From positions 1 through 50,780 of the forward strand of contig NZ_JAFKIC010000128.1 of assembly GCF_017306585.1 (NCBI RefSeq): DNA of 50,780 nt, given 5' to 3'. The position numbers were made by a program, and so were the translations under genes. Below, in pieces: positions 7,543-36,697 of this stretch; the stretch's first letter is position 1, and each line of letters opens with the position of its first letter. The notes below the pieces were generated by a model. The model did no database searches and was not told the DNA's origin. It worked only from the letters and a program-made list of their open reading frames with translations. The DNA comes from Mesorhizobium sp. (GTDB lineage Bacteria > Pseudomonadota > Alphaproteobacteria > Rhizobiales > Rhizobiaceae).

Positions 7543-7625
7543 TCGCCAGCGCGACGCATGATCCTCCCGCCGGCGCCTTTGTACCGTGCAAACGGCGCAT
7601 GAAGGAAAACGACCGCGTGCCGGCG

Positions 7626-7658
7626 CATCCTCTCCCCGCTCTCCTCGGGGAGAGGATG
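7626..7658. repeat. Perfect 12-bp inverted repeat between binding protein and ATPase
   Basis: CATCCTCTCCCC (7626-7637), a nine-base loop, then the exact complement GGGGAGAGGATG (7647-7658). It lacks a T-run, so it looks like a REP-type palindrome or mRNA-stabilising hairpin rather than a classic terminator. Its position after the binding-protein gene matches five other hairpins in this window. Confidence 0.8.
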
Positions 7659-7738
7659 AGGGTGGATCGCCGCTTCAACCTCTTCTTGACGGACCGCAAC
7701 CGGCCCGTCAGTCTGCAGGCCACCGGCTGCTGTCAGGC

Positions 7739-20327: not shown

Positions 20328-21512
20328 TCACGGGAGGCTGTGCGTCCCCGCCTGTTCCCGCCGCCCGAGGCGTTTTTCCCAACCTTCCGCATGGACGTTG
20401 AGATAGGCGTTGGGATCGTACGGATGCTCCCTGATCGCCTCGACATTGAGGTCGATGCCCAGGCCCGGCGCGTCGGGCAGCGACAGATGGCCGTTGTCCG
20501 GATTGACCTTGGGGTGCCAGGTCACCAGATCGCGGGTCCATGGGTCGTTGAAGGCGTCGAAATGCTCCTGGATGAGGAAGTTCGGCACCGCCGCCGCCAG
20601 TTGCAGGCAGACCGCCGTCGCGACCGGCCCGCCGCTCTGGTGCGGTGCGATGTGGCTGCCATGGGCGAAGGCGAGATTGGCCACCTGCATCGACGGCGCG
20701 ATGCCGCCGAGCGACATCGGCTCGGGCTGGAAGATGTTGACGCCGCCGCCGGCCGCAAGCGTGTAGAACTGGCCGACCGTGTCGTACATCTCGCCGGTCG
20801 CCACCGGGATCGGCGAGCGATGCGCAACTTCGTGCACCGTCTCCTGCCGGTCGCGCGAGGTCGGTTCCTCCCACCAGTAGATGTCGAGATCAGCGAATTT
20901 TTGCGCCGCCTGCAGGGCCGCGATCTCGGTGAAGCGGGCATGGACGTCGATCAGGATGCGCGTATCCGCCGGCAAACGATCGCGCAGCATGCGGCAGATC
21001 GCGTAGGACAGGTCGAGCTCCTCGCGCGAGATGAAGCCTTGCGCGGTCCCGAACGGATCGAGCTTGAATGCCTTGAAGCCTTTGGCCAGCACAGCCTTGG
21101 CGGCCTCCAAAAAGGCTTCGGGCGTGCGCTCTGTCCGGTACCAGCCATTGGCGTAGCCGAGCACGCTGTCGCGCACCTGGCCTCCGAGCAGTTGATGGAT
21201 AGGCGCGCCGAGGCTTTTGCCGAGAATGTCCCAGCACGCGACCTCGATTGCGGCGATGACGGTGCGGTGGATATGGCCGCCATCGAGCGAAACGCTGTCC
21301 AGCATGCGCTTGGCCAATGCGTTGATGCGGCGCGGATCCTGGCCGATGGCGAGATGCTTCAACTCATGCACGCCGGCTTCGGTCGTCCTGATGAAGCCGT
21401 TCAGCGTGCCTTCGCCGATGCCGTGGATGCCCTTGTCCGTGTGCACTTTGACAAAGAGCCAGTTCTTCCAGCCGGCGCCGACGGTGAAGGTTTCGATCTC
21501 GGTGATTTTCAT
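20328..21512 (-). CDS. Enolase-superfamily acid-sugar dehydratase (DgoD-like)
   Basis: 394 residues of the mandelate racemase/muconate lactonizing superfamily, which abstract the proton alpha to a carboxylate using Mg2+. An N-terminal capping domain (KITEIETFTV, GEGTLNGF, IGQDPRRI) is followed by the barrel: lysine in FKLDPFG, the acidic/histidine pair in LIDVHARF, metal ligands in WWEEP and ATGEMYD, and the catalytic histidine in APHQSGGP. DVH plus APHxxxGP matches the D-galactonate dehydratase pattern. Predicted product: a 2-oxo-3-deoxy sugar acid. It is the last gene of the minus-strand run SDR, transketolase N, transketolase C, dehydratase. Confidence 0.88.
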   Translation of the reverse strand: MKITEIETFTVGAGWKNWLFVKVHTDKGIHGIGEGTLNGFIRTTEAGVHELKHLAIGQDPRRINALAKRMLDSVSLDGGHIHRTVIAAIEVACWDILGKSLGAPIHQLLGGQVRDSVLGYANGWYRTERTPEAFLEAAKAVLAKGFKAFKLDPFGTAQGFISREELDLSYAICRMLRDRLPADTRILIDVHARFTEIAALQAAQKFADLDIYWWEEPTSRDRQETVHEVAHRSPIPVATGEMYDTVGQFYTLAAGGGVNIFQPEPMSLGGIAPSMQVANLAFAHGSHIAPHQSGGPVATAVCLQLAAAVPNFLIQEHFDAFNDPWTRDLVTWHPKVNPDNGHLSLPDAPGLGIDLNVEAIREHPYDPNAYLNVHAEGWEKRLGRREQAGTHSLP

Positions 21513-21519
21513 GCCGGTC

Positions 21520-22509
21520 CTACCCCAACCCTTTTATCGTCGCGACCATGGCGTCTGTCGTCAGGCCGTATTTCGCCTGCAAGGTCGGCACGGCGCCGCA
21601 TTCGATGTAGCGGTCCGGCAGGCCGATCCGGGCCACTTTCCTGGTAATGCCGGCATCGAACAAGGTCTCGACGACAAGGCTGGCGAGGCCGCCGACCACG
21701 ACATGGTTCTCCGCCGTCACGATGGTCCTGACCCCGGCGGCGAATTCCGCCACGGCCTCGGCGTCGAACGGCTTGATCGTCGGTATGTGCAGGACGCCGA
21801 CCGAGATGCCATGCTTTTGCAAGGCGTCGGCCGCGTCCAGCGCCCGCTCTGTCATGAAGCCGGTCGCGATGATGCCGATATCGCTTCCCTCGCGCAGCCG
21901 GCGCGCCTTGCCGATCTGGAACCGATAGCCCGGCTCGAACACCACCGGCACGCTGCCGCGCAGCAGCCGCATGTAGACCGGCCCCCGATGCTCGGCGATG
22001 GCCTCCGTCGCGGCTTCGATCTCGGTTGCGTCGCAGGGATCGATGATGGTGAGCCCCGGGATCATGCGCATCAAGGCGAGATCCTCGATCGCCTGGTGCG
22101 TGCCGCCATAGCCGGTTGTCAGTCCAGGCAGGCCGGCGACGATCTTCACGTTGAGATTTGAGTGGGCAAGCGCGATGGCGACAAAGTCATAGGCGCGCCG
22201 CGTCGCGAACACACCGTAGGTCGTGGCGAACGGCACCTTGCCGGTGCGCGCCAGCCCGGCGGCGACGGCAACCAGATTCTGCTCCGCCATGCCGACATTG
22301 AAGAAGCGCTCGGGAAACGCATCGCGAAACGGATGGATGTCGGTGTACTTGCCGAGATCAGCTGTCAGAGCGACAATATCGGGCCGGGTCTGGCCGAGCC
22401 GCGCCAGCGCCTTGCCGAACGGCGCCTCGATGCTGCGCCGTCCGCCGCCCACCGCCTCGTCCTGGCCCATGGCCAGCGTCCGTCCGGCCTCCATCGCCGC
22501 GCCGCTCAT
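21520..22509 (-). CDS. Split transketolase, C-terminal subunit
   Basis: 329 residues with the pyrimidine-binding (E1beta-like) and C-terminal domains of transketolase. The pyrimidine-binding motif with catalytic glutamate is NVGMAEQNLVAVAAGLA, followed by FATTYGVFATRRAYD and the C-terminal domain (IGIIATGFMTERALDAA). It pairs with the 22506-23354 product; the genes overlap by four bases (ATGA), typical of obligate partners. Two-gene transketolases often act on unusual or non-standard ketoses. The first about 20 residues are poorly conserved; the next methionine would also be plausible. Confidence 0.9.
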   Translation of the reverse strand: MSGAAMEAGRTLAMGQDEAVGGGRRSIEAPFGKALARLGQTRPDIVALTADLGKYTDIHPFRDAFPERFFNVGMAEQNLVAVAAGLARTGKVPFATTYGVFATRRAYDFVAIALAHSNLNVKIVAGLPGLTTGYGGTHQAIEDLALMRMIPGLTIIDPCDATEIEAATEAIAEHRGPVYMRLLRGSVPVVFEPGYRFQIGKARRLREGSDIGIIATGFMTERALDAADALQKHGISVGVLHIPTIKPFDAEAVAEFAAGVRTIVTAENHVVVGGLASLVVETLFDAGITRKVARIGLPDRYIECGAVPTLQAKYGLTTDAMVATIKGLG

Positions 22510-23354
22510 CGGGCATCTCCCATGGTCTTTTCGAACTCGGCGATGATGCCGTCCCACCGCGCGATGTCGATGCGGAAGAAGTGCGACTTCTCGGATGTCT
22601 CGATGCGGGGCACGCCCTTGCCGGGCAAGGTGCGCAGCACGATCGCCTTCGGCCTGCCGTTGCGCTCGCGCGCCTGGGCCAGCGCTTCTACGATCGCGGT
22701 CATGTCGTTGCCGTCGATCTCCACGGTCTGCCAGCCGAAGGCGCGCCACTTGTCGGCGACCGGCTCCATGTCGAGCACCACCGGCCCGTCGGCCTGGATG
22801 CCGTTGCAGTCGATCAGCGCCACCAGCCCGTCGAGCCCGAAATGGCTGGCCGACATCGCCGCTTCCCAGGTAGAACCTTCCTGCATCTCGCCGTCGGAAA
22901 GCTCCACGAAGACGCGCGCATCGGAATGGTCGACGCGAAGGCCCAGCGCCTGGCCGACACCTTGCCCCAGCCCGTGGCCGAGCGAACCGCCGATGACCTC
23001 GACACCCGGCGTCGTGTCGAGCGTGGACATTTCGAGCCGGCTGTTGTCGGCGCCGTAGGTGATGAGCTCGTTGACAGGGATGATGCCGGCCTCGGCCAGC
23101 GCGGCCCACAGCGCGATCGAATAGTGTCCGGTCGAAAGCAGGAAGCGGTCACGGTCGGCCCAGGCCAGATTGTCCGGGTCGTAGCGCAACTCGTGGAAGT
23201 AAAGCGCCGCCAGGGCGTCGGCGATGCCGAGACCCTGGCCGATGTAGCCCTGCCCCTGCCCACGGGCCATGGTCAGCATATGGCGCCGCAGCCTTGTCGC
23301 CTTGCGTTCGAGCGCGCCGATATCGGCGCTGCCGGGGGGAGAATTTCGCAGCAT
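22506..23354 (-). CDS. Split transketolase, N-terminal (thiamine diphosphate) subunit
   Basis: 282 residues containing the diphosphate-binding domain of transketolase. GGSLGHGLGQGVGQALG provides the family histidine, and the ThDP motif begins ELSDGEMQEGSTWEAAM and runs to LIDCNGIQ, with SDG in place of the more common GDG. It transfers two-carbon ketol units together with the 21520 product. It lies five bp downstream of the SDR stop and is presumably transcribed from the promoter at 24187-24215 with the LacI-type motif. Confidence 0.9.
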   Translation of the reverse strand: MLRNSPPGSADIGALERKATRLRRHMLTMARGQGQGYIGQGLGIADALAALYFHELRYDPDNLAWADRDRFLLSTGHYSIALWAALAEAGIIPVNELITYGADNSRLEMSTLDTTPGVEVIGGSLGHGLGQGVGQALGLRVDHSDARVFVELSDGEMQEGSTWEAAMSASHFGLDGLVALIDCNGIQADGPVVLDMEPVADKWRAFGWQTVEIDGNDMTAIVEALAQARERNGRPKAIVLRTLPGKGVPRIETSEKSHFFRIDIARWDGIIAEFEKTMGDAR

Positions 23355-23358
23355 CGGA

Positions 23359-24153
23359 TCAGTCCTTGTCGAGCCCGCCCGACATGTTGAGCCGTTCGGC
23401 GGTCATGTAATCAGGCGCGTCGAGGCAGAGCCAGACGACTGCTTCTGCCACCTCGGCGATTTCGGCGCGGCGGCCGAGCGGGATGCGGCGGGTGCGCTCG
23501 TCGAGAAAGGCCTGCAGGTCGTTGCGGCCATTGGCGCGGGCGAGATCGACCTCGGTCGACCGCTGCATCTCGGTGTCCATCATGCCCGGCGCCAGGCTGT
23601 TGACCAGCACGCCATAGGGCGCCAGCGCCACGGCAGCGGCGCGGGTGATGGAATCGACGCCGGCCTTGCTCGCCGTATAGGCGGTGTAGTCGGGCAGGGC
23701 CATGCGCGAGCCCGGCGAGGTGATGTTGACGATGCGGCCGGAGCGCTGGTCGCGCATGATGCGCCCGGCAGCCTTGCAGGCCATGGCAAGCGCGGTGACA
23801 TTGAGCGCCAGCGTGCGTGTCCAGGCCCTGAAGGTGGCGTCGAGAAACGGCTCGATGACGCCATAGCCGGCATTGTTGACCAGGATGTCGATGCCGCCCC
23901 AGCGCTCGACCACTTTTGTGACCGCCGCCTCCGGCGCGCCTTCGAGCGTGAAGTCGCCAACGATGCTTTCGGTCCGCGCGCCGGTCTCGCTGATCAGCCT
24001 GACGGTCTCGGCCAGCCCCTCGCCATTGATGTCGGTGACCGCGACGGCGCAGCCGCGCCGGGCAAGCTGGATCGCGACCTCACGGCCAAGGCCGCCGGCT
24101 GCCCCGGTGACCAGGGCTCTCCTGAGCGCGTCGGTTTGATTTTCAGCAGGCAA
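23359..24153 (-). CDS. SDR-family oxidoreductase
   Basis: A 264-residue canonical short-chain dehydrogenase: VTGAAGGLG (about residues 15-23), DILVNNAGYG, IVNITSPGS with the active-site serine, and catalytic Tyr/Lys in AYTASKAG. The start is TTG at 24153, supported by GGGAGGG eight bases upstream; the next in-frame methionine would cut into the cofactor fold. It heads the minus-strand operon with the split transketolase and the DgoD-like dehydratase. A plausible role is oxidation or reduction of the sugar acid or its keto product. Its promoter overlaps a TGGTACCGGTATCA site. Confidence 0.88.
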   Translation of the reverse strand: MPAENQTDALRRALVTGAAGGLGREVAIQLARRGCAVAVTDINGEGLAETVRLISETGARTESIVGDFTLEGAPEAAVTKVVERWGGIDILVNNAGYGVIEPFLDATFRAWTRTLALNVTALAMACKAAGRIMRDQRSGRIVNITSPGSRMALPDYTAYTASKAGVDSITRAAAVALAPYGVLVNSLAPGMMDTEMQRSTEVDLARANGRNDLQAFLDERTRRIPLGRRAEIAEVAEAVVWLCLDAPDYMTAERLNMSGGLDKD

Positions 24154-24287: not shown

Positions 24288-25508
24288 ATGAAAGTCGTCG
24301 CGCTCGAAACGCTGCAACTGGCGGAGTTCCCATTCCTGTTCTGGCTGCGCGTCCATACCGATGCCGGCATCATCGGCACGGGCGAAACCTTCTGGGCGCC
24401 GGGGCCGGTCGCTTCCTACATCCACGACAATGTCGCTTCCTATCTCCTCGGCAGGGATCCGCGCGACATCGAACTGCACGACCGCACGCTCGGCAGCGTC
24501 TATGTCGGCGCGCGCGATTCCGGAGCCGAGGTCAGGGGCAATTCCGCGGTCAACATCGCGCTGTGGGACATATATGGCCAGGCGCTTGGCGAACCGGTCT
24601 GGCGGCTGCTTGGCGGGCGCACCCACAAGACGGTGCCGATCTACAACACCTGCGCCGGCTACAAGCATGTGCGCGCCACCAAGAAGAACGCGCTCTTCGA
24701 GCGCGGCGAGGACTGGTCGCTGAAGGCGGGCGATTCAAACGAAGGACCTTACGAAGACCTGCTCGCCTGGCGCTACAATGCCGGCGACCTCGCCAGAAGC
24801 CTTAAATCCGAGGGCATTCGCGCCATGAAGATCTGGCCGTTCGATATCGCCGCCGAGGCTTCGAACGGCACGCGCATCTCGCTCGCCGACCTCGACAAGG
24901 CGCTTGAGCCTTTCGCCAAAATTCGCGAGGCGGTCGGCCGCGACATGGAGATCATGGTCGAACTGCACGGCCTTTGGACCTTGCCGCCGGTGTTGCGCAT
25001 CGCCGACGCCCTGAAGGCCTACGACGTCGCCTGGCTGGAAGAGCCGATCCGCTACAACGAGCTCGACGCCATGGCCGAACTCGCCCGCCACACCTCGATA
25101 CCCGTCGCCGCCAGCGAACGACTGGCCTCGCGACAGATGTTCAAGCAGCTGATCGACAAGCGCGCCGCCAGCGTCATCATGATCGATCTGGCCTGGTGCG
25201 GCGGCCTCTCCGAGGCGCGCAAGATCGCCAACATGGCCGAAGCCAGCGAACTGCCCGTGACCTTGCATGACTGCACTGGACCCATCGTCTATGCAGCCAG
25301 TTGCGCCCTGTCGGCGACCTTGCCCAACGTCAATTACCAGGAAGCGGTGCGCGCCTATTTTACCGGCTGGTACACCGAAATCGTCGCCGACATTCCGCCC
25401 GTCAGGGACGGCCACGTCGGGCCGCTCGAAGGTCCGGGGCTTGGCCTCAGCCTGCGGCCGGAGCTGCTTCAGCGAGCCGACGCCACCGTTCGGGTCACGA
25501 AAATCTAG
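24288..25508 (+). CDS. Enolase-superfamily acid-sugar dehydratase (mandelate racemase subgroup)
   Basis: 406 residues, a second superfamily member only distantly similar to 20328-21512. Visible active-site elements are lysine in AMKIWPFD, ELHGLW (acidic plus histidine), WLEEP, AASERLASR, and the histidine in TLHDCTGP. A long insertion between the capping domain and the barrel (NTCAGYKHVRATKKNALFER) distinguishes it. The pairing suggests the pathway handles two epimeric or successive acids. The ATG at 24288 follows GGAGGAAAGAG. It is divergent from the SDR operon, and the next gene downstream is the E1-lipoyl fusion. Confidence 0.87.
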   Translation: MKVVALETLQLAEFPFLFWLRVHTDAGIIGTGETFWAPGPVASYIHDNVASYLLGRDPRDIELHDRTLGSVYVGARDSGAEVRGNSAVNIALWDIYGQALGEPVWRLLGGRTHKTVPIYNTCAGYKHVRATKKNALFERGEDWSLKAGDSNEGPYEDLLAWRYNAGDLARSLKSEGIRAMKIWPFDIAAEASNGTRISLADLDKALEPFAKIREAVGRDMEIMVELHGLWTLPPVLRIADALKAYDVAWLEEPIRYNELDAMAELARHTSIPVAASERLASRQMFKQLIDKRAASVIMIDLAWCGGLSEARKIANMAEASELPVTLHDCTGPIVYAASCALSATLPNVNYQEAVRAYFTGWYTEIVADIPPVRDGHVGPLEGPGLGLSLRPELLQRADATVRVTKI

Positions 25509-25638: not shown

Positions 25639-28035
25639 GTGGCAATGTCTGCAGCGCGCGCACGCCAGGATTTCAACGGTGCGCCAAATCTGCCCGACCG
25701 GAAAATCCTGCTCGACCTGTTCGAACGCATGGTGCTGCTGCGCCGCTTCGAAAGCATTGCCCAGATCGCCTGCCGCAAGGGCGAAACCCCCGGCTTTCTC
25801 CACCTCTATATCGGCGAGGAAGCGACCGGCGTCGGCGTCTGCGCGCATCTGAGACCCACTGACTGGGTCACTTCGACCCATCGCGGTCACGGCCATGCGT
25901 TGGCCAAGGGGGCTGACCCCGGTCGGGTCATGGCCGAGCTGTTCGGCAAGGCCGACGGCATCTGCGGCGGCCGTGGCGGCACCATGCATCTCTATGATCG
26001 CTCCGTCGGCCTGTTCGGCACCAACGGAATCGTCGCCGCCGGCATTGGCCATGCCGTCGGCATCGGCATGAGCGCGCGCCGGCAGGGCAAGGACGACATC
26101 GGCGTTGCCTTCTTCGGTGATGGCGCCGCCAACCATGGCGGCTTCCACGAGGCGCTCAACTTCGCCGCCGTGCAGCGCGCGCCCGCCGTGTTCATCTGCG
26201 AGAACAACCTCTACGCGACAGCGACGCCGCTGAAGTCGATCACGCTCAACCCCGAGATATCAACCAAGGCGGCTTCCTATGGCATGCCCGGCGTCGCGGT
26301 CGACGGCAACGACGTGTTCGCCGTCTGGCTGGCCATGAAGGAAGCCACCGAGCGCGCCCGCGCCGGCAAGGGCCCCACCCTGATCGAGGCCAAGACCTAC
26401 CGCACCGTTGGCCACCACGAGGGCGACCCCGTCATCGGCACCTACCGCACGCAGGAGGAACTCGACGCCTGGATCAAGCGCGATCCAATCGACATGTTCC
26501 GCAAGAAGCTGATCGAGGATTACGGCGTCGCTGATGCGGATGCGCTCGCCGCCATCGAAACGCGGATCGAGAAGGTCGTCCAGGAAGCGCTGACCTTCGC
26601 CCGCAATTCGCCCGAGCCCGATCCGTTGACGGTGCGACAGCACGTCTTTGCCGATCCGATCAATCCGCCGTCTGCCTTGCAGCCACGCGCCGTTGGAGAA
26701 ACCCGGACGCAAGGCTGGCTGGAAGCGGTTCGCGACGGCATTGCTGAGGAAATGCGCGCCAATCCGGCGATCCTCTATTTCGGCGAAGGCACTGGCGAGC
26801 GCGGCGGCAGCTTTGCCCACACCAAGAATCTCTGGCAGGAATTCGGCGCCGATCGCATGGTCGACACGCCGATCTCAGAACAGGGTTTTACCGCTGCCGC
26901 GGTCGGCGCCTCGGCCACCGGCGCGCGCACGGTCTCTGACCTGATGTTCGCCGACTTCGCCTTCGAGACCGCTGGGCAGATTTTCCTGCAGGCGGCCAAG
27001 CTGCGCTACATGACCAGCGGCGTCATGAGCGCGCCGATGGTGGTGCGCGTCGGCGCCGGTGCGTTGCGCAGCTCCGGTCCGCACCACAGCGGCATCTATC
27101 ATCCGGTGTTCGCCCACATGCCTGGACTGATCGTCTGCGTTCCCTCGACCCCGGCCGATGCCAAGGGCCCGATGAAGACCGCGCTCAGGGCTGGCGACCC
27201 CGTCATCATGCTGGAACCCAAGGCGCTGTTCGCCTCCAAGGGCGAGGTGCCTATGGGCGAGCATTTCGTTCCCTTCGGCGTCGCGCGCATCGCCAGGGCC
27301 GGCGCCGACATCACCATCGTTGCCGCCGGTCAGATGGTGCAGCGTGCACTCGAAGCGGCGCAAGCGCTGGCTAGTGAAGGCATCGAGGCCGAGGTCATCG
27401 ACCCGCGCACCATCATGCCGCTCGACATCGACACGATCGTCGACAGCGTGCGCAAGACGCATCGGCTGCTTGTGGTGGACGAGGCCTGGGCCATGTGCGG
27501 CCTCGGCGGCGAGATCGCGCAGGCGATCAACGAGCTCGCCTTCGACGAACTCGACGCGCCGCCTGGAAGGCTGCACACCGCGCCGACCTCGCATCCCTTC
27601 GCGCCGGTGCTGGAGCGCGCCATGCTGGTCGATACCGCGCGCATCGCCCAGGGCGCGCGCGACGTTATTTCGGGCCGGCCGCCGGTGCCGGATCACTGGT
27701 ACACGGTCGGCCTGAAAAGTGCTGCGCCGGCTAATTTGGCGCCTGCTCCGGTCAAGGCACCGCCCGTGGCGCCGGCGCCGGCCATTTCCGCAGCCGGAGA
27801 CGACGAGCCGATAACCATGCCGTTCGGCGATCTGACCGTCAGCGAAGGCACAGTCGTCAAATGGCTGAAGTCGGTCGGCGATGCCGTCAAGGAGGGCGAG
27901 TTGATCGCCGAGATCGAGACCGACAAGGCGGTCGTCGAGATCGAGGCGCCGGTCGGCGGAACGCTTTGCGCAATCGATCAGCCGGTTGGCGCCGTGGTGC
28001 CGATGGGCGGCCGCATCGGCGGCATCAAAAAGTAA
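25639..28035 (+). CDS. Fused 2-oxoacid dehydrogenase E1alpha-E1beta-lipoyl protein
   Basis: 798 residues with three parts. E1alpha is about residues 1-345, with LHLYIGEEATGVG, HRGHGHALAKG, the GGRGGTMH loop and ThDP motif FFGDGAANHGGFHEALNFA. E1beta is about residues 355-690 (EGTGERGGSFAHTKNL, DTPISEQGFTAAAVG with the catalytic Glu, FADFAFE). After an Ala/Pro linker comes a lipoyl domain (about 722-798) with the lipoylation lysine in IETDKAVVEIEAP (K763). The normally separate lipoyl arm of E2 is thus attached to E1. It decarboxylates a 2-oxo acid and reductively acylates its own lipoyl group. GTG at 25639 follows GGGAGG; ATG at 25645 is an alternative. The substrate is unknown. Confidence 0.85.
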   Translation: MAMSAARARQDFNGAPNLPDRKILLDLFERMVLLRRFESIAQIACRKGETPGFLHLYIGEEATGVGVCAHLRPTDWVTSTHRGHGHALAKGADPGRVMAELFGKADGICGGRGGTMHLYDRSVGLFGTNGIVAAGIGHAVGIGMSARRQGKDDIGVAFFGDGAANHGGFHEALNFAAVQRAPAVFICENNLYATATPLKSITLNPEISTKAASYGMPGVAVDGNDVFAVWLAMKEATERARAGKGPTLIEAKTYRTVGHHEGDPVIGTYRTQEELDAWIKRDPIDMFRKKLIEDYGVADADALAAIETRIEKVVQEALTFARNSPEPDPLTVRQHVFADPINPPSALQPRAVGETRTQGWLEAVRDGIAEEMRANPAILYFGEGTGERGGSFAHTKNLWQEFGADRMVDTPISEQGFTAAAVGASATGARTVSDLMFADFAFETAGQIFLQAAKLRYMTSGVMSAPMVVRVGAGALRSSGPHHSGIYHPVFAHMPGLIVCVPSTPADAKGPMKTALRAGDPVIMLEPKALFASKGEVPMGEHFVPFGVARIARAGADITIVAAGQMVQRALEAAQALASEGIEAEVIDPRTIMPLDIDTIVDSVRKTHRLLVVDEAWAMCGLGGEIAQAINELAFDELDAPPGRLHTAPTSHPFAPVLERAMLVDTARIAQGARDVISGRPPVPDHWYTVGLKSAAPANLAPAPVKAPPVAPAPAISAAGDDEPITMPFGDLTVSEGTVVKWLKSVGDAVKEGELIAEIETDKAVVEIEAPVGGTLCAIDQPVGAVVPMGGRIGGIKK

Positions 28036-28066
28036 CGCATCCCAATACGAGATCCGAAGGACTGGC

Positions 28067-29077
28067 ATGAAGATTCTGTGCGCCAACTGGCAAGCCGCCG
28101 ACGAGGCCGAACTCGAGCGCGAGCATTATCCCGACATCGAGTTCGTGCTCGCGCGATCGACCAATGACAGGGCGGCCACGCTCGATCCGGCCATCTGCGA
28201 GACGGTAGACGCCGTCATAAACTACTCGCCGACCCACAATGTCGCCGCCGCTCCGGCGGCCTTCCCCAAGGCCCGTATTGCCGTCCGCTCAGGCGTCGGA
28301 TTCGACAACATCGACACGGCGGGCTGGGGCGCGCGCAGGATTCCGGCCTGCAATGTGCCCGACTATGGCACGACCGAAGTCGCCGACCATGCGATCGGCC
28401 TGATGCTGGCGCTGACGCGCGGCACCTCGGCATATGGCGCGGCGCTTTCCGGCCATGGTCCCGAAGGCTGGCATTTCTCCAAAGCGCCGTTGGTGCGCCG
28501 CCACAAGGGCGCTACTTTCGGCATTGTCGGGCTCGGCCGCATCGGGCTTGCCACGGCCCGCCGCGCCGCCGCCTTCGACATGAAGGTGGTGTTCCACGAT
28601 CCGCATCTGCTGTCGGGCGTCGATCTGTCGACCGGCTATGAGAGGGTGCATTCGCTGGCTGAGTTGATGGGCCGCGCTGATGTCGTCAGCGTCCACACGC
28701 CGCTCAGCGACGAGACGCGAAAGCTGCTCGGCGCGGCTGCCTTCGATGCCGCTAAGCCCGGCCTTGTGCTGATCAACACGGCGCGCGGCCCGATCGTCGA
28801 CCTCGACGCGCTGGAGGCCGCCATGCGCAAGGGCACCGTCGCGGGCGCCGGGCTCGACGTGCTGCCGAGCGAACCGGGCGATCTCGATCATCCGCTTTTG
28901 GCGGCATGGCGCCGCCGCGAACCCTGGATCGCCAATCGTCTGATCGTCACGCCGCATGCCGCCTTCTACAGCCCGGCGTCGATGCGCGACCTCCGGCTGA
29001 AATCGATCGAGGTCGTACACGCCTACCTCGCCGAGGGCCGCCTCACCAACTGCGTCAATTCGGAGTTCCTGAAATGA
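28067..29077 (+). CDS. D-isomer-specific 2-hydroxyacid dehydrogenase
   Basis: 336 residues of the NAD-dependent phosphoglycerate/formate dehydrogenase family, interconverting a 2-hydroxy acid and a 2-oxo acid. The cofactor fold is FGIVGLGRIGLATARRAAAF, and the catalytic Arg, Glu and His lie in NTARGPIVD, LDVLPSEP and TPHAAFYS. It is sandwiched between the E1-lipoyl and E2-like genes, with a start 31 bp after the former and a four-base overlap (ATGA) with the latter. It therefore probably supplies or removes the 2-oxo acid used by that complex. Confidence 0.87.
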   Translation: MKILCANWQAADEAELEREHYPDIEFVLARSTNDRAATLDPAICETVDAVINYSPTHNVAAAPAAFPKARIAVRSGVGFDNIDTAGWGARRIPACNVPDYGTTEVADHAIGLMLALTRGTSAYGAALSGHGPEGWHFSKAPLVRRHKGATFGIVGLGRIGLATARRAAAFDMKVVFHDPHLLSGVDLSTGYERVHSLAELMGRADVVSVHTPLSDETRKLLGAAAFDAAKPGLVLINTARGPIVDLDALEAAMRKGTVAGAGLDVLPSEPGDLDHPLLAAWRRREPWIANRLIVTPHAAFYSPASMRDLRLKSIEVVHAYLAEGRLTNCVNSEFLK

Positions 29078-29814
29078 ATGCGGCCCTGGCACAGGCGAGG
29101 CGCCTCGCTGTCTCGCCCTATGCCCGCCGTCTGGCGCGCGAGCGCGCGCTGCCACTCGAGATACTTCGCGGCAGCGGCCCGCATGGCCGCATCCTGGCCG
29201 CCGACGTGCTGGGCTTCGCTTCGGCGGCCGTTCCGGCAATCGTACCGGAGGCCGCCGTCTCGCCCGAGCCCGTCACTCCCCCCGCGCCGGCCACCGCACC
29301 TATCCGCATCGCATCCTTCGCGACGTCGATCGCGCTCGGCCCGCTGAAGGATCTGCTCAAGGCGCTCGAGACGTCGGGTCATGCGTTTGATATCGAGGAC
29401 GTGCTGCTGCGCGCGGCCGGTCGGGCATCTGCCCAGGTGCCGGACGTTGGCGCCGGCAATGGACCCGTGGCCCTGGAACTGGCCGGCCGGCAGGCTGTGT
29501 TCGTCACCGTTCCCGAGATGCCGATGCTCTCGTTGCGCGCGACGCGGCTCGCGGCCCTGGCCGACGGCCGCGACGATGCCGAAAAACCGGCGACATTGTC
29601 GCTGCGGCTGCTGGCGGCAAGCGACATCCGGCCTGTGATGATGCCGCTTCTGGCTGACCGTGCCATGCGCCTCACCGTTTGCGTCGCGACGGCCGGCGAC
29701 TGTGCCGAATGCCTGTTCACGGTGGATGCGGCAAGCCTGGACGAGGCGGCCGCCGCCGCCTGGCTTTTGGGGCTGAAGTCGTCGATCGAGCGCCCGCTCC
29801 GGCTTTTCGTCTGA
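29074..29814 (+). CDS. Degenerate E2-like protein: peripheral-subunit-binding domain plus defective acyltransferase core
   Basis: 246 residues. Residues about 11-46 (VSPYARRLARE...GSGPHGRILAADV) form a clear E3/E1-binding peripheral-subunit domain. There is no lipoyl domain; that domain sits on the 25639 product. After an Ala/Pro linker, the remaining about 150 residues resemble a shortened acyltransferase core. Its C-terminus, FTVDAASLDEAAAAAWLL, aligns with the family DHRxxDG region, but the catalytic histidine is Ala (A219) and the glycine is Glu, with D223 kept. It is probably a scaffold or non-standard acyl carrier partner. The CoA-acyltransferase step is unlikely by the usual mechanism. 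Confidence 0.75.
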   Translation: MNAALAQARRLAVSPYARRLARERALPLEILRGSGPHGRILAADVLGFASAAVPAIVPEAAVSPEPVTPPAPATAPIRIASFATSIALGPLKDLLKALETSGHAFDIEDVLLRAAGRASAQVPDVGAGNGPVALELAGRQAVFVTVPEMPMLSLRATRLAALADGRDDAEKPATLSLRLLAASDIRPVMMPLLADRAMRLTVCVATAGDCAECLFTVDAASLDEAAAAAWLLGLKSSIERPLRLFV

Positions 29815-29896: not shown

Positions 29897-30667
29897 ATGG
29901 ACCATTCCGTTCCCACCATCGACAGTCTTCCCAAGCGCACGCTCGGCCGCGCAAACGGGCCGCTCTATCGCCAACTCGCCGACATCCTGCGCGAACCGAT
30001 CGGCAACGGCACTTTCCCGGTCGGCGGCGAATTGCCGAAGGAGGCGACCATCGCCGAGCATTTCGGTGTCAGCCTCATCACCGTGCGCCAGGCGTTGCGC
30101 GACCTCGAGGCCGATGGGCTGATCCGGAAACGCTCCGCCAAGCCGGCAGTGGTCGCTGCCCGCAGCCCGTCGGTCAATCTGAGCTGGAAGTTCAAGAACT
30201 TCGCCGACATGGCCGCCTTCACCAAGGACGCGCAGTTGACGGTGAAATCCTATCGCAAGGAGGTTTCGCCGGTGCTCCAGCGCCATTTCGGCATGGGCAA
30301 GGACGAGGCGGGCTATTGCCTGCGCAGCGTTTTGTCGATCGGCGAACAGCGCAAGGCGCAGATCACCACCTATTTCCCGCCCGACATCGGCGCTCGCCTC
30401 AAGCGCGAGGATTTCTCCGACGTGCTGATCTTCCGTTCGGTGCAGAAGCATCTCGGCTTGCGGCTCGATGTGGCGCACGTCACGGTGCGCGCCGAGATCG
30501 CTGATGAGGCGGTCGCCGCCGACCTTGGCATCGCGCTCGGCAAGCCGGTGCTGACGGTGGAAATGCTCTACCAGTCGGCCGATCAGCGCAGCATCGAGTT
30601 CTCCGTGGCCCGCCACCCCGCCGACATCTTCAGCATCACCTATGATGCGCCCAACGACCTGTCCTGA
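29897..30667 (+). CDS. GntR-family (HutC/UTRA-type) transcriptional regulator
   Basis: 256 residues. The N-terminal winged helix-turn-helix spans about residues 22-90 (PLYRQLADILREPIGNGTFP, KEATIAEHFGVSLITVRQAL, DLEADGLIRKRS). The C-terminal UTRA ligand-binding domain ends with VEMLYQSADQRSIEFSVARH and DIFSITY, typical of the HutC subfamily. It lies between the E2-like gene and the third sugar ABC operon. It is the best candidate to read the four ATTATAATAGCAT sites and its own upstream dyad, as HutC-type sites are often AT-centred palindromes. Effector unknown; a pathway intermediate is likely. Confidence 0.9.
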   Translation: MDHSVPTIDSLPKRTLGRANGPLYRQLADILREPIGNGTFPVGGELPKEATIAEHFGVSLITVRQALRDLEADGLIRKRSAKPAVVAARSPSVNLSWKFKNFADMAAFTKDAQLTVKSYRKEVSPVLQRHFGMGKDEAGYCLRSVLSIGEQRKAQITTYFPPDIGARLKREDFSDVLIFRSVQKHLGLRLDVAHVTVRAEIADEAVAADLGIALGKPVLTVEMLYQSADQRSIEFSVARHPADIFSITYDAPNDLS

Positions 30668-30720
30668 GGCGGTGCGGCACCGCCACTTTCTGATGCGGCC
30701 CGCATAGACAGGCAGATAAA

Positions 30721-30733
30721 ATTATAATAGCAT
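30721..30733 (+). promoter_or_regulatory. ATTATAATAGCAT motif, copy 3 (putative GntR operator)
   Basis: Exact 13-mer between the GntR gene and the 30930 ABC operon, about 200 bp before the latter's start and 112 bp before the TGGTACCGGTATCA site. Confidence 0.6.
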
Positions 30734-30831
30734 GATAGCTAAGCTGGTAGCCCGGCCGTGAACCGGGTTTTCGGTCCGGGAATCCGGTGAATTCCGTTCG
30801 TGGGCGCGGCGTCGAGGAGAGCCTCGGCAAA

Positions 30832-30860
30832 TTGACATCTGCAATTGGTACCGGTATCAT
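30832..30860 (+). promoter_or_regulatory. Promoter with TGGTACCGGTATCA operator, copy 2
   Basis: TTGACA (30832-30837), a 17-base spacer, then TATCAT (30855-30860), with the 14-mer operator at 30846-30859 overlapping spacer and -10. It drives the tandem binding-protein ABC operon from 30930. The layout is the same as at 24215-24187. Confidence 0.75.
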
Positions 30861-30929
30861 CTGTTGTCCTTGCCCGATCAAGCTGGCGCAGTCCATCAGC
30901 GGCAAGGCAGGAAACACAGGGAGGAGACC

Positions 30930-31994
30930 ATGAGAAAGAGGAGCTTGGGCGCCTGCTTCGTGGCGCTTGCCGGGGTCGCCATCGCCATGGGCGCTATGCC
31001 CGGCCATACCGCGACCCAGAAGTCCTACACCATCTATCTCTCGAACAATTTCGTCGGCAATGACTGGCGCCAGCAGATGGAGCGCGTCGCCAATGTGGCC
31101 GTCAACAAAGGACCGCTGAAAGGCCGCGTCGATCTCAAGATCGAGAACGCGGAGAATACGGTCCAGGCGCAGATCAATTCGCTGAACAACATCATCCGCC
31201 AGAAGCCGGCCGCCATCCTGATCGACGCTTCGTCGGCCGAAGCGCTCAACCCGACGATCAAGAAGGCCTGCGACGCCGGCATCGTCGTCGTCAGTTTCGA
31301 CCAAACCGTGTCGGCCGAATGCGCTTATAAGCTGCATTCCGATTTCGACATCATGGCCAACAACCAGGCCGAGTGGATGGCTTCCATTCTCGGCGGCAAG
31401 GGCAAGGTGCTGATGGACCGTGGCCTTGCCGGCGCGCCGATCTCCGAACAGTTCGAGAAGAATTTCGGCGCCGTGTTGAAGAAGTACCCAGGCATCGAGA
31501 TCGTCGGCTACTTCAACGGCAACTATGCCGCGGGTCCCGAGCAGGAAGGCGTGGCCAGCCTGCTTGCCGCGCACCCGGAAGTCGATGGCATCTTCTCGCA
31601 GGGCTACGGCACCGGCGCCATCAAGGCGCTGCAGAATGCCGACCGGCCGATGGTGCCGATCGTTGCCGCCGCCTTCAACGGCACCGGCATCACCTGCGCC
31701 GAGACCAGGGGCGCGAAATGCTGGCTCGGCGCCAATCCGCCCTCGCTGTCGGCCGAGGCGATCAAGCTCGCCGTCGACATTCTCGATACCGGCAAGAAGC
31801 CTGAGAACACGACGGTCCTGTTCAACTCGCCCGGCCTGACCACGGATATGGTGGACGCCAAATACGCGCCGAACTCGTCGGCGGTGAAGATCGAACTCGG
31901 CAAGACCGTGTTTCCCGACCTGGCGCCGGGCTTGTCCTTGCCGGTGTCCCCGACCTGGGTGGAGATCACGCCGAAGGAGGCTTCCGGAAGCTGA
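30930..31994 (+). CDS. Sugar ABC transporter substrate-binding protein, tandem copy A
   Basis: A 354-residue type-1 periplasmic binding protein with a Sec signal peptide (about residues 1-28). The N-terminal lobe contains YTIYLSNNFVGNDWRQQMER and AQINSLNNIIRQKPA, shared almost unchanged with the next gene. The central part (SAECAYKLHSDFDIMANNQA) and C-terminus differ. The ATG at 30930 follows GGGAGGAG. First gene of the operon 30930-37579, under the two-motif control region. Substrate presumably a sugar, lactone or sugar acid. Confidence 0.9.
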   Translation: MRKRSLGACFVALAGVAIAMGAMPGHTATQKSYTIYLSNNFVGNDWRQQMERVANVAVNKGPLKGRVDLKIENAENTVQAQINSLNNIIRQKPAAILIDASSAEALNPTIKKACDAGIVVVSFDQTVSAECAYKLHSDFDIMANNQAEWMASILGGKGKVLMDRGLAGAPISEQFEKNFGAVLKKYPGIEIVGYFNGNYAAGPEQEGVASLLAAHPEVDGIFSQGYGTGAIKALQNADRPMVPIVAAAFNGTGITCAETRGAKCWLGANPPSLSAEAIKLAVDILDTGKKPENTTVLFNSPGLTTDMVDAKYAPNSSAVKIELGKTVFPDLAPGLSLPVSPTWVEITPKEASGS

Positions 31995-32008
31995 GCCTTG
32001 TCAATGCG

Positions 32009-32024
32009 GACGCCGCTTGGCGTC
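32009..32024. repeat. Short hairpin between tandem binding-protein genes
   Basis: GACGCC-GCTT-GGCGTC: a six-base perfect stem with a tetraloop, 15 bp after the stop of copy A and upstream of the GGGAGG of copy B. Confidence 0.6.
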
Positions 32025-32057
32025 AGAGTTTCAAAACGAAGAATGGGAGGAAAAAAC

Positions 32058-33125
32058 ATGAAATCATTGAGCCGTAACATCGGCCTTGCCGCGCTTGCCG
32101 CCACCATGATGGCGACAGGCATGCAGTCCGGTCATGCCGAGGACAAGAAGCCCTACACCATCTATCTCTCGAACAATTTCGTCGGCAACGACTGGCGCCA
32201 GCAGATGGAGCGCGTCGCCACGGTCTCGGTCAACAAAGGCCCGCTCAAGGGACGCGTCGATCTCAAGATCGAGAATGTCGAAAACACCGTCCAGGCGCAG
32301 ATCAATTCGCTGAACAACATCATCCGCCAGAAGCCGGACGCCATCCTCGTCGACGCCGGCTCCGATTCGGCGTTGAATCCGACCATCAAGAAGGCCTGTG
32401 ACGCCGGCATCGTCGTCATCTCCTTCGACCAGGTGGTGACCGAGCCTTGCGCGCTCGCCGTCGCTTCCGACTGGGACCGCATACCCTCGGTCATGGCCGA
32501 ATGGATGGCCGTACAGCTGGGCGGCAAGGGCAACATCATTCTCGATCGCGGCCTTGCCGGTGCGCCCATCTCGGCGCAGTTGCAGGGCGGGTATGAGAAG
32601 GTTCTGGCGAAATATCCCGACATCAAGATCGTCGGCTACTACAACGGCAATTATGCGCTCGGGCCGGAGCAGTCCGGTGTCGCCGCGCTGCTTGCCGCCA
32701 ACCCGAAGATCGACGGCATCATGACGCAAGGCTATGGCTCGGGCGCCATCCAGGCGCTGAAGGATGCCGGCCGCCCGATCGTTCCGGTCGTCGGTTTCTC
32801 CTACAATGTCGCCGCCGTCACCTGCGCCCAGACGCAGGGCGCCAAGTGCATTCTCGGCTCCAACCCGGCCTATCTCTCGTCCGAGGCGATCAAGCTTGCC
32901 GTCGAGATTCTCGACACCGGCAAGAAGCCGGCCGAACGTTCCGTGTCGGTCAAGGGCGACTTCGTCACCACCGACCCCTTCGAGTCCAAGCTCTATCCCG
33001 GCACCAAGATGATCAAGATCGCGGTCGGCGAAAACGCCTTCCCCGACCAGGCGCCGGGCCTGACGCTGCCGATCACGCCCGACTGGGTCGAGATCACCGC
33101 TGCGGAAGCCGCCGGCTCGAAGTAA
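32058..33125 (+). CDS. Sugar ABC transporter substrate-binding protein, tandem copy B
   Basis: A 355-residue paralogue of 30930-31994 with signal peptide about residues 1-27. It shares YTIYLSNNFVGNDWRQQMER, VNKGPLKGRVDLKIEN and QINSLNNIIRQKP with copy A. At nucleotide level a stretch of about 70 bases around 32153-32220 differs at one position from copy A. The middle (TEPCALAVASDWDRIPSVMA) is divergent, so the two probably bind related but different ligands for one permease pair. The ATG at 32058 is preceded by GGGAGG. A strong stem-loop follows the gene. Confidence 0.9.
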   Translation: MKSLSRNIGLAALAATMMATGMQSGHAEDKKPYTIYLSNNFVGNDWRQQMERVATVSVNKGPLKGRVDLKIENVENTVQAQINSLNNIIRQKPDAILVDAGSDSALNPTIKKACDAGIVVISFDQVVTEPCALAVASDWDRIPSVMAEWMAVQLGGKGNIILDRGLAGAPISAQLQGGYEKVLAKYPDIKIVGYYNGNYALGPEQSGVAALLAANPKIDGIMTQGYGSGAIQALKDAGRPIVPVVGFSYNVAAVTCAQTQGAKCILGSNPAYLSSEAIKLAVEILDTGKKPAERSVSVKGDFVTTDPFESKLYPGTKMIKIAVGENAFPDQAPGLTLPITPDWVEITAAEAAGSK

Positions 33126-33146
33126 CATCCGATACCACGACCCTGT

Positions 33147-33172
33147 CTCCCGGCATCGCAAGATGCCGGGAG
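33147..33172 (+). terminator. Strong 11-bp stem-loop between binding protein B and the ATPase (attenuator-like)
   Basis: CTCCCGGCATC, loop GCAA, exact complement GATGCCGGGAG, followed by AGCTTTT. The stable stem with a short T-tract looks like a weak terminator that would lower ATPase and permease expression relative to the binding proteins. The ATPase ribosome binding site lies 8-14 bases further on. Confidence 0.75.
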
Positions 33173-33192
33173 AGCTTTTCGAAGGCGCATCC

Positions 33193-34695
33193 ATGGATCT
33201 CGTCACCGTCAACGGCCTGACCAAACGCTATGGCGGCATCGTCGCGCTGAGCGATGCGACATTCAGCGCCCGCGCCGGCGAGGTGCACGCGCTGCTCGGC
33301 GAGAACGGCGCGGGAAAAAGCACCTTCATCCAGATCCTGTCGGGCGCGGTCAGGCATGATGGCGGCTCGATCCTCATCGATGGGCAGGACTATCGTCCCG
33401 CCAATCCGGATGCCGCGCAGGCGCGGGGCATCGCCGCGGTCTTCCAGGAACTGTCGCTGATCCCCGACCTCAGCGTCGAACAAAACATCTGGTTCCGCCA
33501 CGAACCGAGGACACTGCTGCGCACCGTCAATCGCGGGGAGATGCGGCGCAAGACGCTGGCGCTGCTCGAAAAATACAGTTTTCCCACACTTCGCCCGGAT
33601 CGGGAGTTGCGCCGGCTGACGCTGGCCGAGCGGCAGATCGTCGAGATCGCCAAGGGCCTGGCCAAGGACCCCCGCATCATCATCCTCGACGAGGCGACCT
33701 CGGCGCTGCCCGCGCGCGAGGCAGAATGGCTGCTGAAGCTTACACGCCAGCTTGCCGCGGAAGGCAGGCTGGTGATCTTCATATCGCACCGCATGGCGGA
33801 GGTCCGCGCCATCGCCGACCGGTTGACCATCTTCCGCAATGGCGCCACCGTCGCGGCGCATGAGGCCAACGCCGTGTCCGACAACGAGATCGTCGCCCAG
33901 ATGATCGGCCGGCATCTCGACCGTCTCTATCCCGAGCGCATACCGACCGCGACCGACCGCGTTGCGTTGAAGGTGCAGGGGATTTCGAGCGGCAGCCGGC
34001 TGTCCGGTGTCGAGTTTGCCTTGCGTGAAGGCGAGGTGCTCGGCGTCGGCGGCCTGCAGGGGCACGGCCAGCGCGAATTGTTCCAGGCGCTGTTCGGGGC
34101 GACAAGGGCGACCGGCGCGGTCGAACTGTGGGGCAAGCCGGTCTCGATCGCCAATCCGCGTCAGGCGCTCACTGGCAGGGACGGTATCGCTCTTGTGCCG
34201 GAGGACCGGCGCGGCCAGGGTCTTCTGCTGACCAAGAGCGTGCGCGAGAACCTGACGCTGTCGGTGATCAAACGCTTTACCGAAAACGGCTTGCTAAGCC
34301 GGCAAAAGGAAGCTGAGTTGGTCAAGGAAATGGTCGACTTCCTCCGCATCAAGGCGGGCACGCCCGAACAGCTCGCGGGCACGCTCTCGGGCGGCAACCA
34401 GCAGAAGGTGATCTTCGGCAAGATGCTGCTGACGCAGGCGCGCATCTTGCTGCTCTACGATCCGACGCGCGGCGTCGATGTCGGCACCAAGGGCGAGATC
34501 TTCCAGCTGATGCGCGACCTTGCGGCCAAGGGCTATGCGATCCTGTTCCATTCCAGCGACATGCCCGAGCTCGTCCATGTCGCCGACCGGGTGATGGTGA
34601 TGCGCAATGGCCGCATCGCCGCGACGCTGGAAGGCGACCATATTTCGGAGGAGGAAATTCTGCGCGCCGCCATGCTTGAAACCAGGGCTGCTTGA
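33193..34695 (+). CDS. Sugar ABC transporter, double ATP-binding protein with altered second Walker B
   Basis: A 500-residue tandem ATPase. First domain: Walker A GENGAGKSTFIQIL, LTLAERQIVEIAKGL, Walker B IIILDEATSAL. Second domain: signature LSGGNQQKVIFGKML, but the Walker B reads ILLLYDPTRGVD, so the usual Asp-Glu pair is Tyr422-Asp423. One composite ATP site is therefore probably inactive or slow, which some sugar ATPases tolerate. The ATG at 33193 is chosen over 33163 because GAAGG sits seven bases upstream and the earlier start lies inside the stem-loop. It serves permeases 34699 and 35724. Confidence 0.9.
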   Translation: MDLVTVNGLTKRYGGIVALSDATFSARAGEVHALLGENGAGKSTFIQILSGAVRHDGGSILIDGQDYRPANPDAAQARGIAAVFQELSLIPDLSVEQNIWFRHEPRTLLRTVNRGEMRRKTLALLEKYSFPTLRPDRELRRLTLAERQIVEIAKGLAKDPRIIILDEATSALPAREAEWLLKLTRQLAAEGRLVIFISHRMAEVRAIADRLTIFRNGATVAAHEANAVSDNEIVAQMIGRHLDRLYPERIPTATDRVALKVQGISSGSRLSGVEFALREGEVLGVGGLQGHGQRELFQALFGATRATGAVELWGKPVSIANPRQALTGRDGIALVPEDRRGQGLLLTKSVRENLTLSVIKRFTENGLLSRQKEAELVKEMVDFLRIKAGTPEQLAGTLSGGNQQKVIFGKMLLTQARILLLYDPTRGVDVGTKGEIFQLMRDLAAKGYAILFHSSDMPELVHVADRVMVMRNGRIAATLEGDHISEEEILRAAMLETRAA

Positions 34696-34698
34696 GGC

Positions 34699-35727
34699 AT
34701 GGTGATGACTGTTGAGCAAACCGCCGAGATGGCGCAAAGGCCGGCCGAAATGAAGTCGGTAAATCCTGGCATCGACTGGCGTGGCCGTGCGCTCGACCGC
34801 GCGCCGTTCCTTGTCGCTTGCCTGATGCTGGCCCTGATCGTCGCCATCTATGGCAGCCTGCAATCCGGCGTCTTCACGCTCGACGAAATCAATCTCGACA
34901 CGGCGGCGGCGATGACGCTGATGCTGGCCGCGACTGGCCAGACCATCGTTCTGTTGCGCGGCGGCATCGACCTGTCGATCGGCGGCATGATCAGCCTCGG
35001 CACGGTGATCGCGGCAACGCGCTTCACCGATGACCCCTCGACGACGGCATTTTGGGCGCTGGCCATCCTGGCGCTCGGCTTCGGCATCGGCGCGTTGAAC
35101 GGGCTGCTGATCTCCCTGCTCAGGCTGCAGCCCTTCCTGGTCACGCTCGCCACTTGGTCGATATTGAACGGCATCGCCATGATCATCCTGCCGACCGATG
35201 GCGGCAGCGTGCCGTCCTGGTGGGTGGGCTTTGCCTCCGCACAGCTTTTCGGCCTGACCAGCCCGGTCTGGATGCTGCTCGCGCTGCTCGTGTTCTGGTG
35301 GTGGTTTCGCGCGACGGGGACAGGCATCACCATCCAGGCTTCGGGGTCGAACGAGAAGTCCGCTTTCCTGTCGGGCGTCTCGATCACCCGCGTCAATCTC
35401 GTCACTTATGGGCTCTCTGGCCTGTTCGCGGCAGGCGCGGCGCTGTTCCTGGTGACCCAGACCGGCGCCGGTTCGCCGACCATCGGCAAGGACTACATCC
35501 TACCTTCGGTGGCGGCGGCGGTAATTGGCGGCGTCAGCCTGTTCGGCGGCCGTGGCCATCTCGCCGGAACACTGATCGGCGCCTTCGTGCTGACGCTGAT
35601 CGGCAACCTCGTCTTCGTCCTTCACGTGTCCAGCTACTGGCAGCCCGTCGCGTCAGGCGTCATCCTGCTGCTTTCGGTGCTGGCCAGTTCCATTGCCGAG
35701 AAGGCCGCGAGGAGCCGGGTTCAATGA
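34699..35727 (+). CDS. Sugar ABC transporter, permease 1
   Basis: 342 residues, RbsC/AraH family, with about nine hydrophobic segments after a roughly 30-residue cytoplasmic tail. Landmarks are GQTIVLLRGGIDLSIGGMIS and AAAVIGGVSLFGGRGHLAG. It starts three bases after the ATPase stop (GAGGC ribosome binding site) and overlaps permease 2 by four bases (ATGA). The two different permeases presumably form a heterodimeric channel. Confidence 0.9.
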   Translation: MVMTVEQTAEMAQRPAEMKSVNPGIDWRGRALDRAPFLVACLMLALIVAIYGSLQSGVFTLDEINLDTAAAMTLMLAATGQTIVLLRGGIDLSIGGMISLGTVIAATRFTDDPSTTAFWALAILALGFGIGALNGLLISLLRLQPFLVTLATWSILNGIAMIILPTDGGSVPSWWVGFASAQLFGLTSPVWMLLALLVFWWWFRATGTGITIQASGSNEKSAFLSGVSITRVNLVTYGLSGLFAAGAALFLVTQTGAGSPTIGKDYILPSVAAAVIGGVSLFGGRGHLAGTLIGAFVLTLIGNLVFVLHVSSYWQPVASGVILLLSVLASSIAEKAARSRVQ

Positions 35728-36686: not shown

Positions 36687-36697
36687 ATGGAGGGGAA

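Follow-up and report, generated by a model that had tools for sequence, protein, structure and literature searches.

How does a 2-oxoacid dehydrogenase pass on its acyl group if its lipoyl domain is carried by E1 and the only E2-like protein encoded beside it lacks the catalytic histidine? The question is raised by a gene cluster of Mesorhizobium sp. in a stretch of 50,780 nt (contig NZ_JAFKIC010000128.1, in the following "the window"), in which a fusion of E1alpha, E1beta and a lipoyl domain is accompanied by a D-2-hydroxyacid dehydrogenase (HADH) and by a small E2-like protein with a peripheral subunit-binding domain (PSBD), here called mini-E2. In the usual picture, a 2-oxoacid dehydrogenase is a self-contained machine of E1, E2 and E3. 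We propose, with moderate confidence, that the cluster encodes an accessory sugar-acid 2-oxoacid dehydrogenase that has its own lipoyl arm and uses mini-E2 as an adapter resembling the eukaryotic E3-binding protein (E3BP), and that a pyruvate dehydrogenase (PDH)-type E2 and the housekeeping E3 complete the reaction on CoA. Substrate, docking, assembly, partner core and product are what we infer from sequences and single-chain structure predictions.

An E1 fusion with its own lipoyl domain

An earlier note on this DNA had described one chain of 798 residues with E1alpha, E1beta and a lipoyl domain (K763). This was borne out, i.e. all four Pfam domains exceed their cut-offs and K763 lies within an ETDKA motif. 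The chain has the features of an alpha2beta2-type E1 (E1_dh, Transket_pyr, Transketolase_C, the thiamine diphosphate motif, and the Glu and His conserved in E1beta) as well as those of a predicted lipoyl domain (Biotin_lipoyl with the DKA lysine). Lys763 is retained in 61 of 63 aligned fusions, and the remaining two are truncated by contig ends; three rows of this alignment repeat the contig of another row, and locus L083, with a split frame, was left out. The single-chain model, based on 22 rows, has a mean pLDDT of 60.6, with a fairly confident lipoyl domain preceded by a low-confidence linker, and is too weak for any reading beyond the lipoyl domain.

The premise that the lipoyl arm of known complexes sits on E2 does not hold even for the same genome, the PDH E1beta of which bears an N-terminal lipoyl domain; a lipoyl domain has reportedly also been found on the E1beta of Zymomonas. 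The fusion thus resembles alphaproteobacterial PDH E1beta in that a lipoyl domain is covalently attached to E1. In contrast, the lipoyl domain of PDH E1beta is N-terminal and the PDH E2 has one too, whereas that of the fusion is C-terminal on E1alphabeta and mini-E2 has neither a lipoyl domain nor the catalytic His.

The fusion clade was found in 49 loci (L035-L083) with 66-95% identity to the window fusion, the closest relatives (90-95%) being from Mesorhizobium. At E values up to 1e-200, the genus yielded fusions in 12 of 61 genomes, the family in 9 of 394 and the class in 4 of 387; the genome of the window is counted in all three. The fusion cluster is a patchy accessory module. In two Anaerolineae records (L094, 7869-10394; L112, 5911-8013), a single frame likewise covers E1alpha and E1beta; they are far from the fusion clade and are either distantly related to it or the result of a separate fusion event.

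Mini-E2 as a predicted E2-fold pseudoenzyme under purifying selection

Pfam searches, alignment and AlphaFold2/Foldseek comparisons confirmed that the E2-like protein has a PSBD, no lipoyl domain, a reduced core, and DAASLDE at the place of DHRxxDG. Its sole Pfam match at E values up to 0.1 is E3_binding (residues 13-46); 2-oxoacid_dh (PF00198) gives no match, compared with 290 bits for the E2 of locus L078 (see below). The AlphaFold2 model of mini-E2 has a mean pLDDT of 86.5, and the best 50 Foldseek rows against the PDB match E2 catalytic domains with E values of about 1e-11 to 1e-8 and TM values of about 0.5-0.6. These rows comprise E2 chains, OdhA, and the pseudo-atomic model of human E3BP (6h60, rank 18). 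The ranks above 6h60 are occupied by E2 chains, and the matched fungal chain 7r5m_A is the E2 of that entry, not the E3BP.

In an alignment of 45 rows, the column of the catalytic His contains A, T, P, G or E in all 44 mini-E2 rows (two of which are identical to each other and two are pieces of broken genes), and His only in L078 (DHRVVDG). A catalytic His that is shifted but present, an option left by the earlier note, was rejected: no column of the mini-E2 alignment A1 has an invariant or near-invariant His, and we therefore regard the residue as lost rather than shifted. His residues at +3 and +5 of the motif occur only in L007 and are missing from its nearest relatives. Mini-E2 also lacks the N-terminal segment of the core and, compared with the L078 E2, the SNLG motif and the residues around IRKVLARRLTESKQQAPH, both of which have catalytic roles in E2 enzymes. 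The protein thus has neither the DHRxxDG His of an active acyltransferase nor a lipoyl domain of its own. Two features are E3BP-like, i.e. an E2-homologous fold with a PSBD and a core that is predicted to be inactive. Judged by alignment and model, mini-E2 is an E2-fold pseudoenzyme.

Median dN/dS values were calculated for 25 Mesorhizobium-type sequences, the pairs of which are not independent. Within mini-E2, the value is lowest for the PSBD (0.13), followed by the core (0.27) and the linker (0.50); the values for the neighbours are 0.055 (E1), 0.107 (lipoyl domain) and 0.084 (HADH). The entropy over 29 mini-E2 rows is 0.78 for the C-terminal octapeptide, the lowest value measured, 0.83 for the PSBD, and 1.07-1.80 for other core elements. 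According to PMC9681731, the C-terminus of E2 cores is the knob of the intertrimer contact. By these sequence measures, mini-E2 is under purifying selection.

Probable kinship of mini-E2 with PDH-type E2

A profile of the mini-E2 core, built without L078, was run on the window genome and scored 30.7 bits with the PDH E2, 19.7 bits with that of 2-oxoglutarate dehydrogenase (OGDH), and 10.0 bits with the third E2. The mini-E2 PSBD profile scored 43-58 bits with 26 full-length PDH-type E2s of the family, 16.5 bits with OGDH and 30.3 bits with the third E2; the PDH PSBD of the window genome, which is cut in the piece used, was outside this comparison. These scores make it more likely that mini-E2 derives from a bacterial PDH-type E2 than that it is an orthologue of eukaryotic E3BP.

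At two loci, L077 and L078, the gene that follows the fusion and the dehydrogenase encodes a PSBD and a PDH-type E2 core, again without a lipoyl domain. The L078 E2 (5521-6438) is complete and has DHRVVDG, whereas the L077 E2 starts at about 4269 and runs off the end of its contig. The housekeeping PDH E2 cores of genomes G347 and G428 each share 92.5% identity with the L078 core, and 94.5% and 91.4%, respectively, with the L077 core (128 core residues present). For comparison, the identity of the L078 core is 55-67% to PDH-type E2 cores from the window's family (26 cores, named by a motif) and 63.4% to the window's own PDH E2. The PSBD of L078 is 62-68% identical to the PDH E2 PSBDs of G347 and G428, and its E2 DNA is 83-84% identical to their PDH E2 genes; as yardsticks, the DNA identity is 86% between the fusions of L078 and G347 and 84% between the PDH regions of G428 and G347. 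G347 carries a sister fusion of L077/L078, and G428 has the same genus code.

The L078 E2 copy is followed by TRAP transporter genes, as the cluster is in L132, and it thus lies outside a PDH operon; misassembly is unlikely, because the contig continues into the TRAP genes. From this non-PDH context and a DNA divergence close to the genome divergence, it follows that a PDH E2 core was captured, or has been kept alike, at this place, i.e. by core capture or gene conversion within a sugar-acid-type cluster. Of the sequence comparisons, the PDH-like core of L077/L078 gives the strongest hint that a PDH-type core is the partner of the fusion, and its location at the mini-E2 position points to an ordinary PDH-type transfer to CoA.

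The window contig has no PF00198-type E2 match, and the absence of a local E3 gene, also part of the earlier note, held true, as none of the 35 TIGR01350 matches of the genome is located on this contig. Elsewhere, the genome contains three ordinary E2 loci and one contig-edge fragment. A canonical E2 that consistently accompanies the fusion had been named as a possible refutation. Ordinary E2s were indeed found in 32 of 32 genomes searched, but this co-occurrence is trivial, because their numbers are alike with and without the fusion. The genus comparison covered 11 of the 13 genomes known to carry the fusion and 12 without it; the numbers of PF00198 matches per genome, contig-end fragments included, are 2-6 (mean 4.3) and 3-5 (mean 3.8), respectively. 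No special canonical E2 co-occurring with the fusion was seen among these genomes; G799 and G800 each have one additional, weaker-scoring E2. The near-equal gene counts are neutral for our proposal.

Occurrence of mini-E2 beside the fusion

The combination of the fusion with the truncated E2-like protein is not a one-off. Open frames of both strands, and additionally the forward frames of 18 loci, were searched, and intact mini-E2 genes were found in 38 of the 49 fusion loci, in genera that include Mesorhizobium, Devosia, Oricola, Bauldia, Kaistia and Bosea. The gene is frame-broken in three loci (L044, L048, L081), has no match in three (L058, L071, L074), and is represented by a full-core E2 at its position in two (L078 and the cut L077); the last three loci are cut by contig ends (L063, L073, L079). 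Further loci outside this set also have mini-E2 (L134, L135, L136, L140) or are cut (L133), and L132 has a fusion and no mini-E2 match; the contigs of L137-L139 equal in length those of L069, L070 and L082. Genome G307 has a fusion and two ordinary E2s, and no mini-E2 match within the 16 kb examined. The E2-like gene of L131 (G392; 7345-7848), which is cut by the contig end, encodes two tandem PSBDs over a degenerate core. An apparent HADH/mini-E2 gene fusion in L083 was rejected, because the frame crosses a stretch of N.

Among the matches listed for 199 family genomes, four span nearly the full length of mini-E2 (G000, G080, G074, G089), and all four genomes also carry the fusion. The alignment profile A1 finds ordinary E2s in 329 of 387 class genomes; it includes the L078 row, so that this number says nothing about the specificity of mini-E2.

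A tree was calculated from 36 chosen fusions and four outgroup rows. The four loci without an E2-like gene fall on different branches, suggesting repeated loss, and a protein that is lost in several lineages would be useful rather than essential, or replaceable. The outgroup is distant, and the direction of core degeneration was therefore not inferred from this tree.

Proposed mechanism and alternatives

In the proposed reaction, the E1 of the fusion would decarboxylate a 2-oxo (probably 2-oxo-3-deoxy) sugar acid, and its own lipoyl arm would take over the acyl group. Mini-E2 would act like E3BP, its PSBD docking E1 and/or E3, and what remains of its core, with the knob, would anchor it to an active E2 core. 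Transfer of the acyl group to CoA would take place at a PDH-type E2 site, which would belong to the housekeeping PDH core or, for L077/L078, to the E2 encoded in the cluster. The lipoyl arm would be reoxidised by the housekeeping E3.

Two known systems are related to this scheme. Fungal E3BP, a truncated and inactive E2, forms trimers within the PDH core and recruits E3 (PMC10156792). Mini-E2 resembles eukaryotic, especially fungal, E3BP in that both are E2 paralogues combining a PSBD with a reduced E2-fold core that is catalytically dead, by prediction in the case of mini-E2. Unlike eukaryotic E3BP, mini-E2 is bacterial, is encoded beside a sugar-acid-type E1 and has no lipoyl domain; the likeness is one of sequence and fold, and orthology is not claimed. 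Actinobacterial OdhA combines E1 and E2 activity in one chain and borrows the lipoyl domain from PDH in a mixed PDH/ODH complex (PMC10415282). In OdhA/KGD, as in the system proposed here, housekeeping PDH thus supplies a component that a 2-oxoacid E1 does not have. However, OdhA has an active E2 domain and no lipoyl domain, whereas the fusion has a lipoyl domain and no active E2, and the E1 types differ.

Several points weigh against our proposal. Binding of mini-E2 to PDH, E3 or the fusion is deduced indirectly. The housekeeping PDH E2 may refuse hydroxyacyl groups. The PSBD motifs that discriminate between E1 and E3 in eukaryotes are inconsistent here, as judged by eye. The PDH-like core of L077/L078 rests on two contigs of metagenome-assembled genomes, the branch uniting these loci with L131/L132 is weak (93/57), and one of the two PDH references, G428, has no fusion match at E values up to 1e-200. 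The PSBDs of L077/L078 score 38-40 bits with the mini-E2 PSBD profile, below the ordinary PDH-type E2s, and these loci may therefore represent a separate capture from PDH and not an intermediate. Lastly, mini-E2 is dispensable in places, i.e. in the four loci without a match (L058, L071, L074, L132) and the three with broken frames; all seven fusions retain Lys763.

The alternative that survives best, although we consider it unlikely, is that mini-E2 has a structural role only, as a subunit that docks or oligomerises the fusion, or the fusion and the dehydrogenase, away from the PDH core, and that acyl transfer occurs by diffusion to any cellular E2. No other domain is as constrained as the PSBD, L131 has two copies of it, and some loci do without mini-E2, all of which is compatible with such a role. 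In contrast, the conserved C-terminal knob speaks for contact with an E2 core, as does the PDH-like core of L077/L078.

The earlier note had suggested that the acyl group might go to something other than CoA or be hydrolysed. In such a reaction no acyl-CoA would be made; the acyl-dihydrolipoyl arm would be cleaved by water or would react with a different acceptor, mini-E2 or another enzyme taking part. The window cluster holds no active E2, and the four loci without any mini-E2 match still keep the lipoyl Lys. However, we found no positive evidence for this reaction and regard it as improbable: no His is conserved in mini-E2, ordinary E2s are encoded at three loci of the genome, and a PDH-type core, complete in L078, occupies the same place in L077/L078. 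The recurring neighbours in 20 representative loci include no obvious acyl acceptor, i.e. short-chain dehydrogenase/reductase (SDR) in 20 loci (a count of proximity, not orthology, and SDRs are common), HADH in 11, GntR in 10 and mandelate racemase (MR) in 9; these counts cover only clusters matching window genes, and a conserved acceptor may be among the rest. Least probable of all is that mini-E2 is a slowly decaying, functionless relic beside a fusion that is useful alone, because the dN/dS values of core and PSBD and the intact genes in several genera outweigh the broken or unmatched copies (three each of 49 loci, and G307) and an evolution much faster than that of the neighbours.

Returning to the adapter proposal, a selected dead E2 beside an E1 with its own arm, together with a PDH-like core in one lineage, suggests that bacteria share the PDH core in a modular way and have a counterpart of E3BP. 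A literature search found no published description of this arrangement of E1-lipoyl fusion and mini-E2. A wider and more tentative idea, to which we give somewhat less credence, is that a bacterial E3BP-like pseudo-E2 adapter plugs a self-lipoylated non-pyruvate E1 into the housekeeping PDH core, which would become a shared acyl-CoA factory for accessory catabolic E1s. The cluster makes the use of a foreign E2 core by accessory E1s directly testable.

Organization of the cluster

The features of the cluster are compiled in Table 1. The HADH gene lies between the fusion and mini-E2 and overlaps the latter by four bases. The neighbouring genes suggest a sugar acid as the substrate class of the fusion.

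Table 1. Positions of genes, domains and motifs in the window
Feature	Position	Strand	Remarks
Divergent group overall	20328-24153	-	second MR-type gene, split transketolase, SDR
Second MR-type gene	20328-21512	-	
Split transketolase, C half / N half	21520-22476 / 22506-23354	-	separate genes
SDR gene	23359-24153	-	
MR/enolase-superfamily, sugar-acid dehydratase-like gene	24288-25508	+	upstream of fusion
E1alpha-E1beta-lipoyl fusion	25639-28035	+	798 aa; GTG start at 25639, ATG also at 25645
E1alpha domain	25723-26625	+	Pfam E1_dh, residues 29-329; GDG...ENN motif kept
E1beta domain	26713-27645	+	Transket_pyr 359-531, Transketolase_C 547-669; PISEQGF and GPHHSG kept
Lipoyl domain of fusion	27832-28017	+	Biotin_lipoyl, residues 732-793; lipoylation-site Lys763 at 27925-27927
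HADH	28067-29077	+	336 aa; CtBP among solved chains scores best
Mini-E2 (PSBD and degenerate E2 catalytic-domain fold)	29074-29814	+	246 aa
PSBD of mini-E2	29110-29211	+	residues 13-46
DAASLDE of mini-E2	29725-29745	+	residues 218-224; replaces DHRxxDG of active E2s, catalytic His absent
C-terminal octapeptide ERPLRLFV of mini-E2	29788-29811	+	where E2 cores have their C-terminal intertrimer knob
GntR/UTRA regulator, two sugar-type periplasmic binding proteins, ABC ATPase, two permeases, SMP-30 lactonase-type protein	29897-37579	+	

Two further observations concern the flanking genes. The two binding-protein genes form a tandem pair of similar Peripla_BP_4 members (30864-33125) ahead of one ABC ATPase and two permeases. 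The transketolase that is divergent to the fusion operon (21520-23354) is likewise split in Devosia records and in L067.

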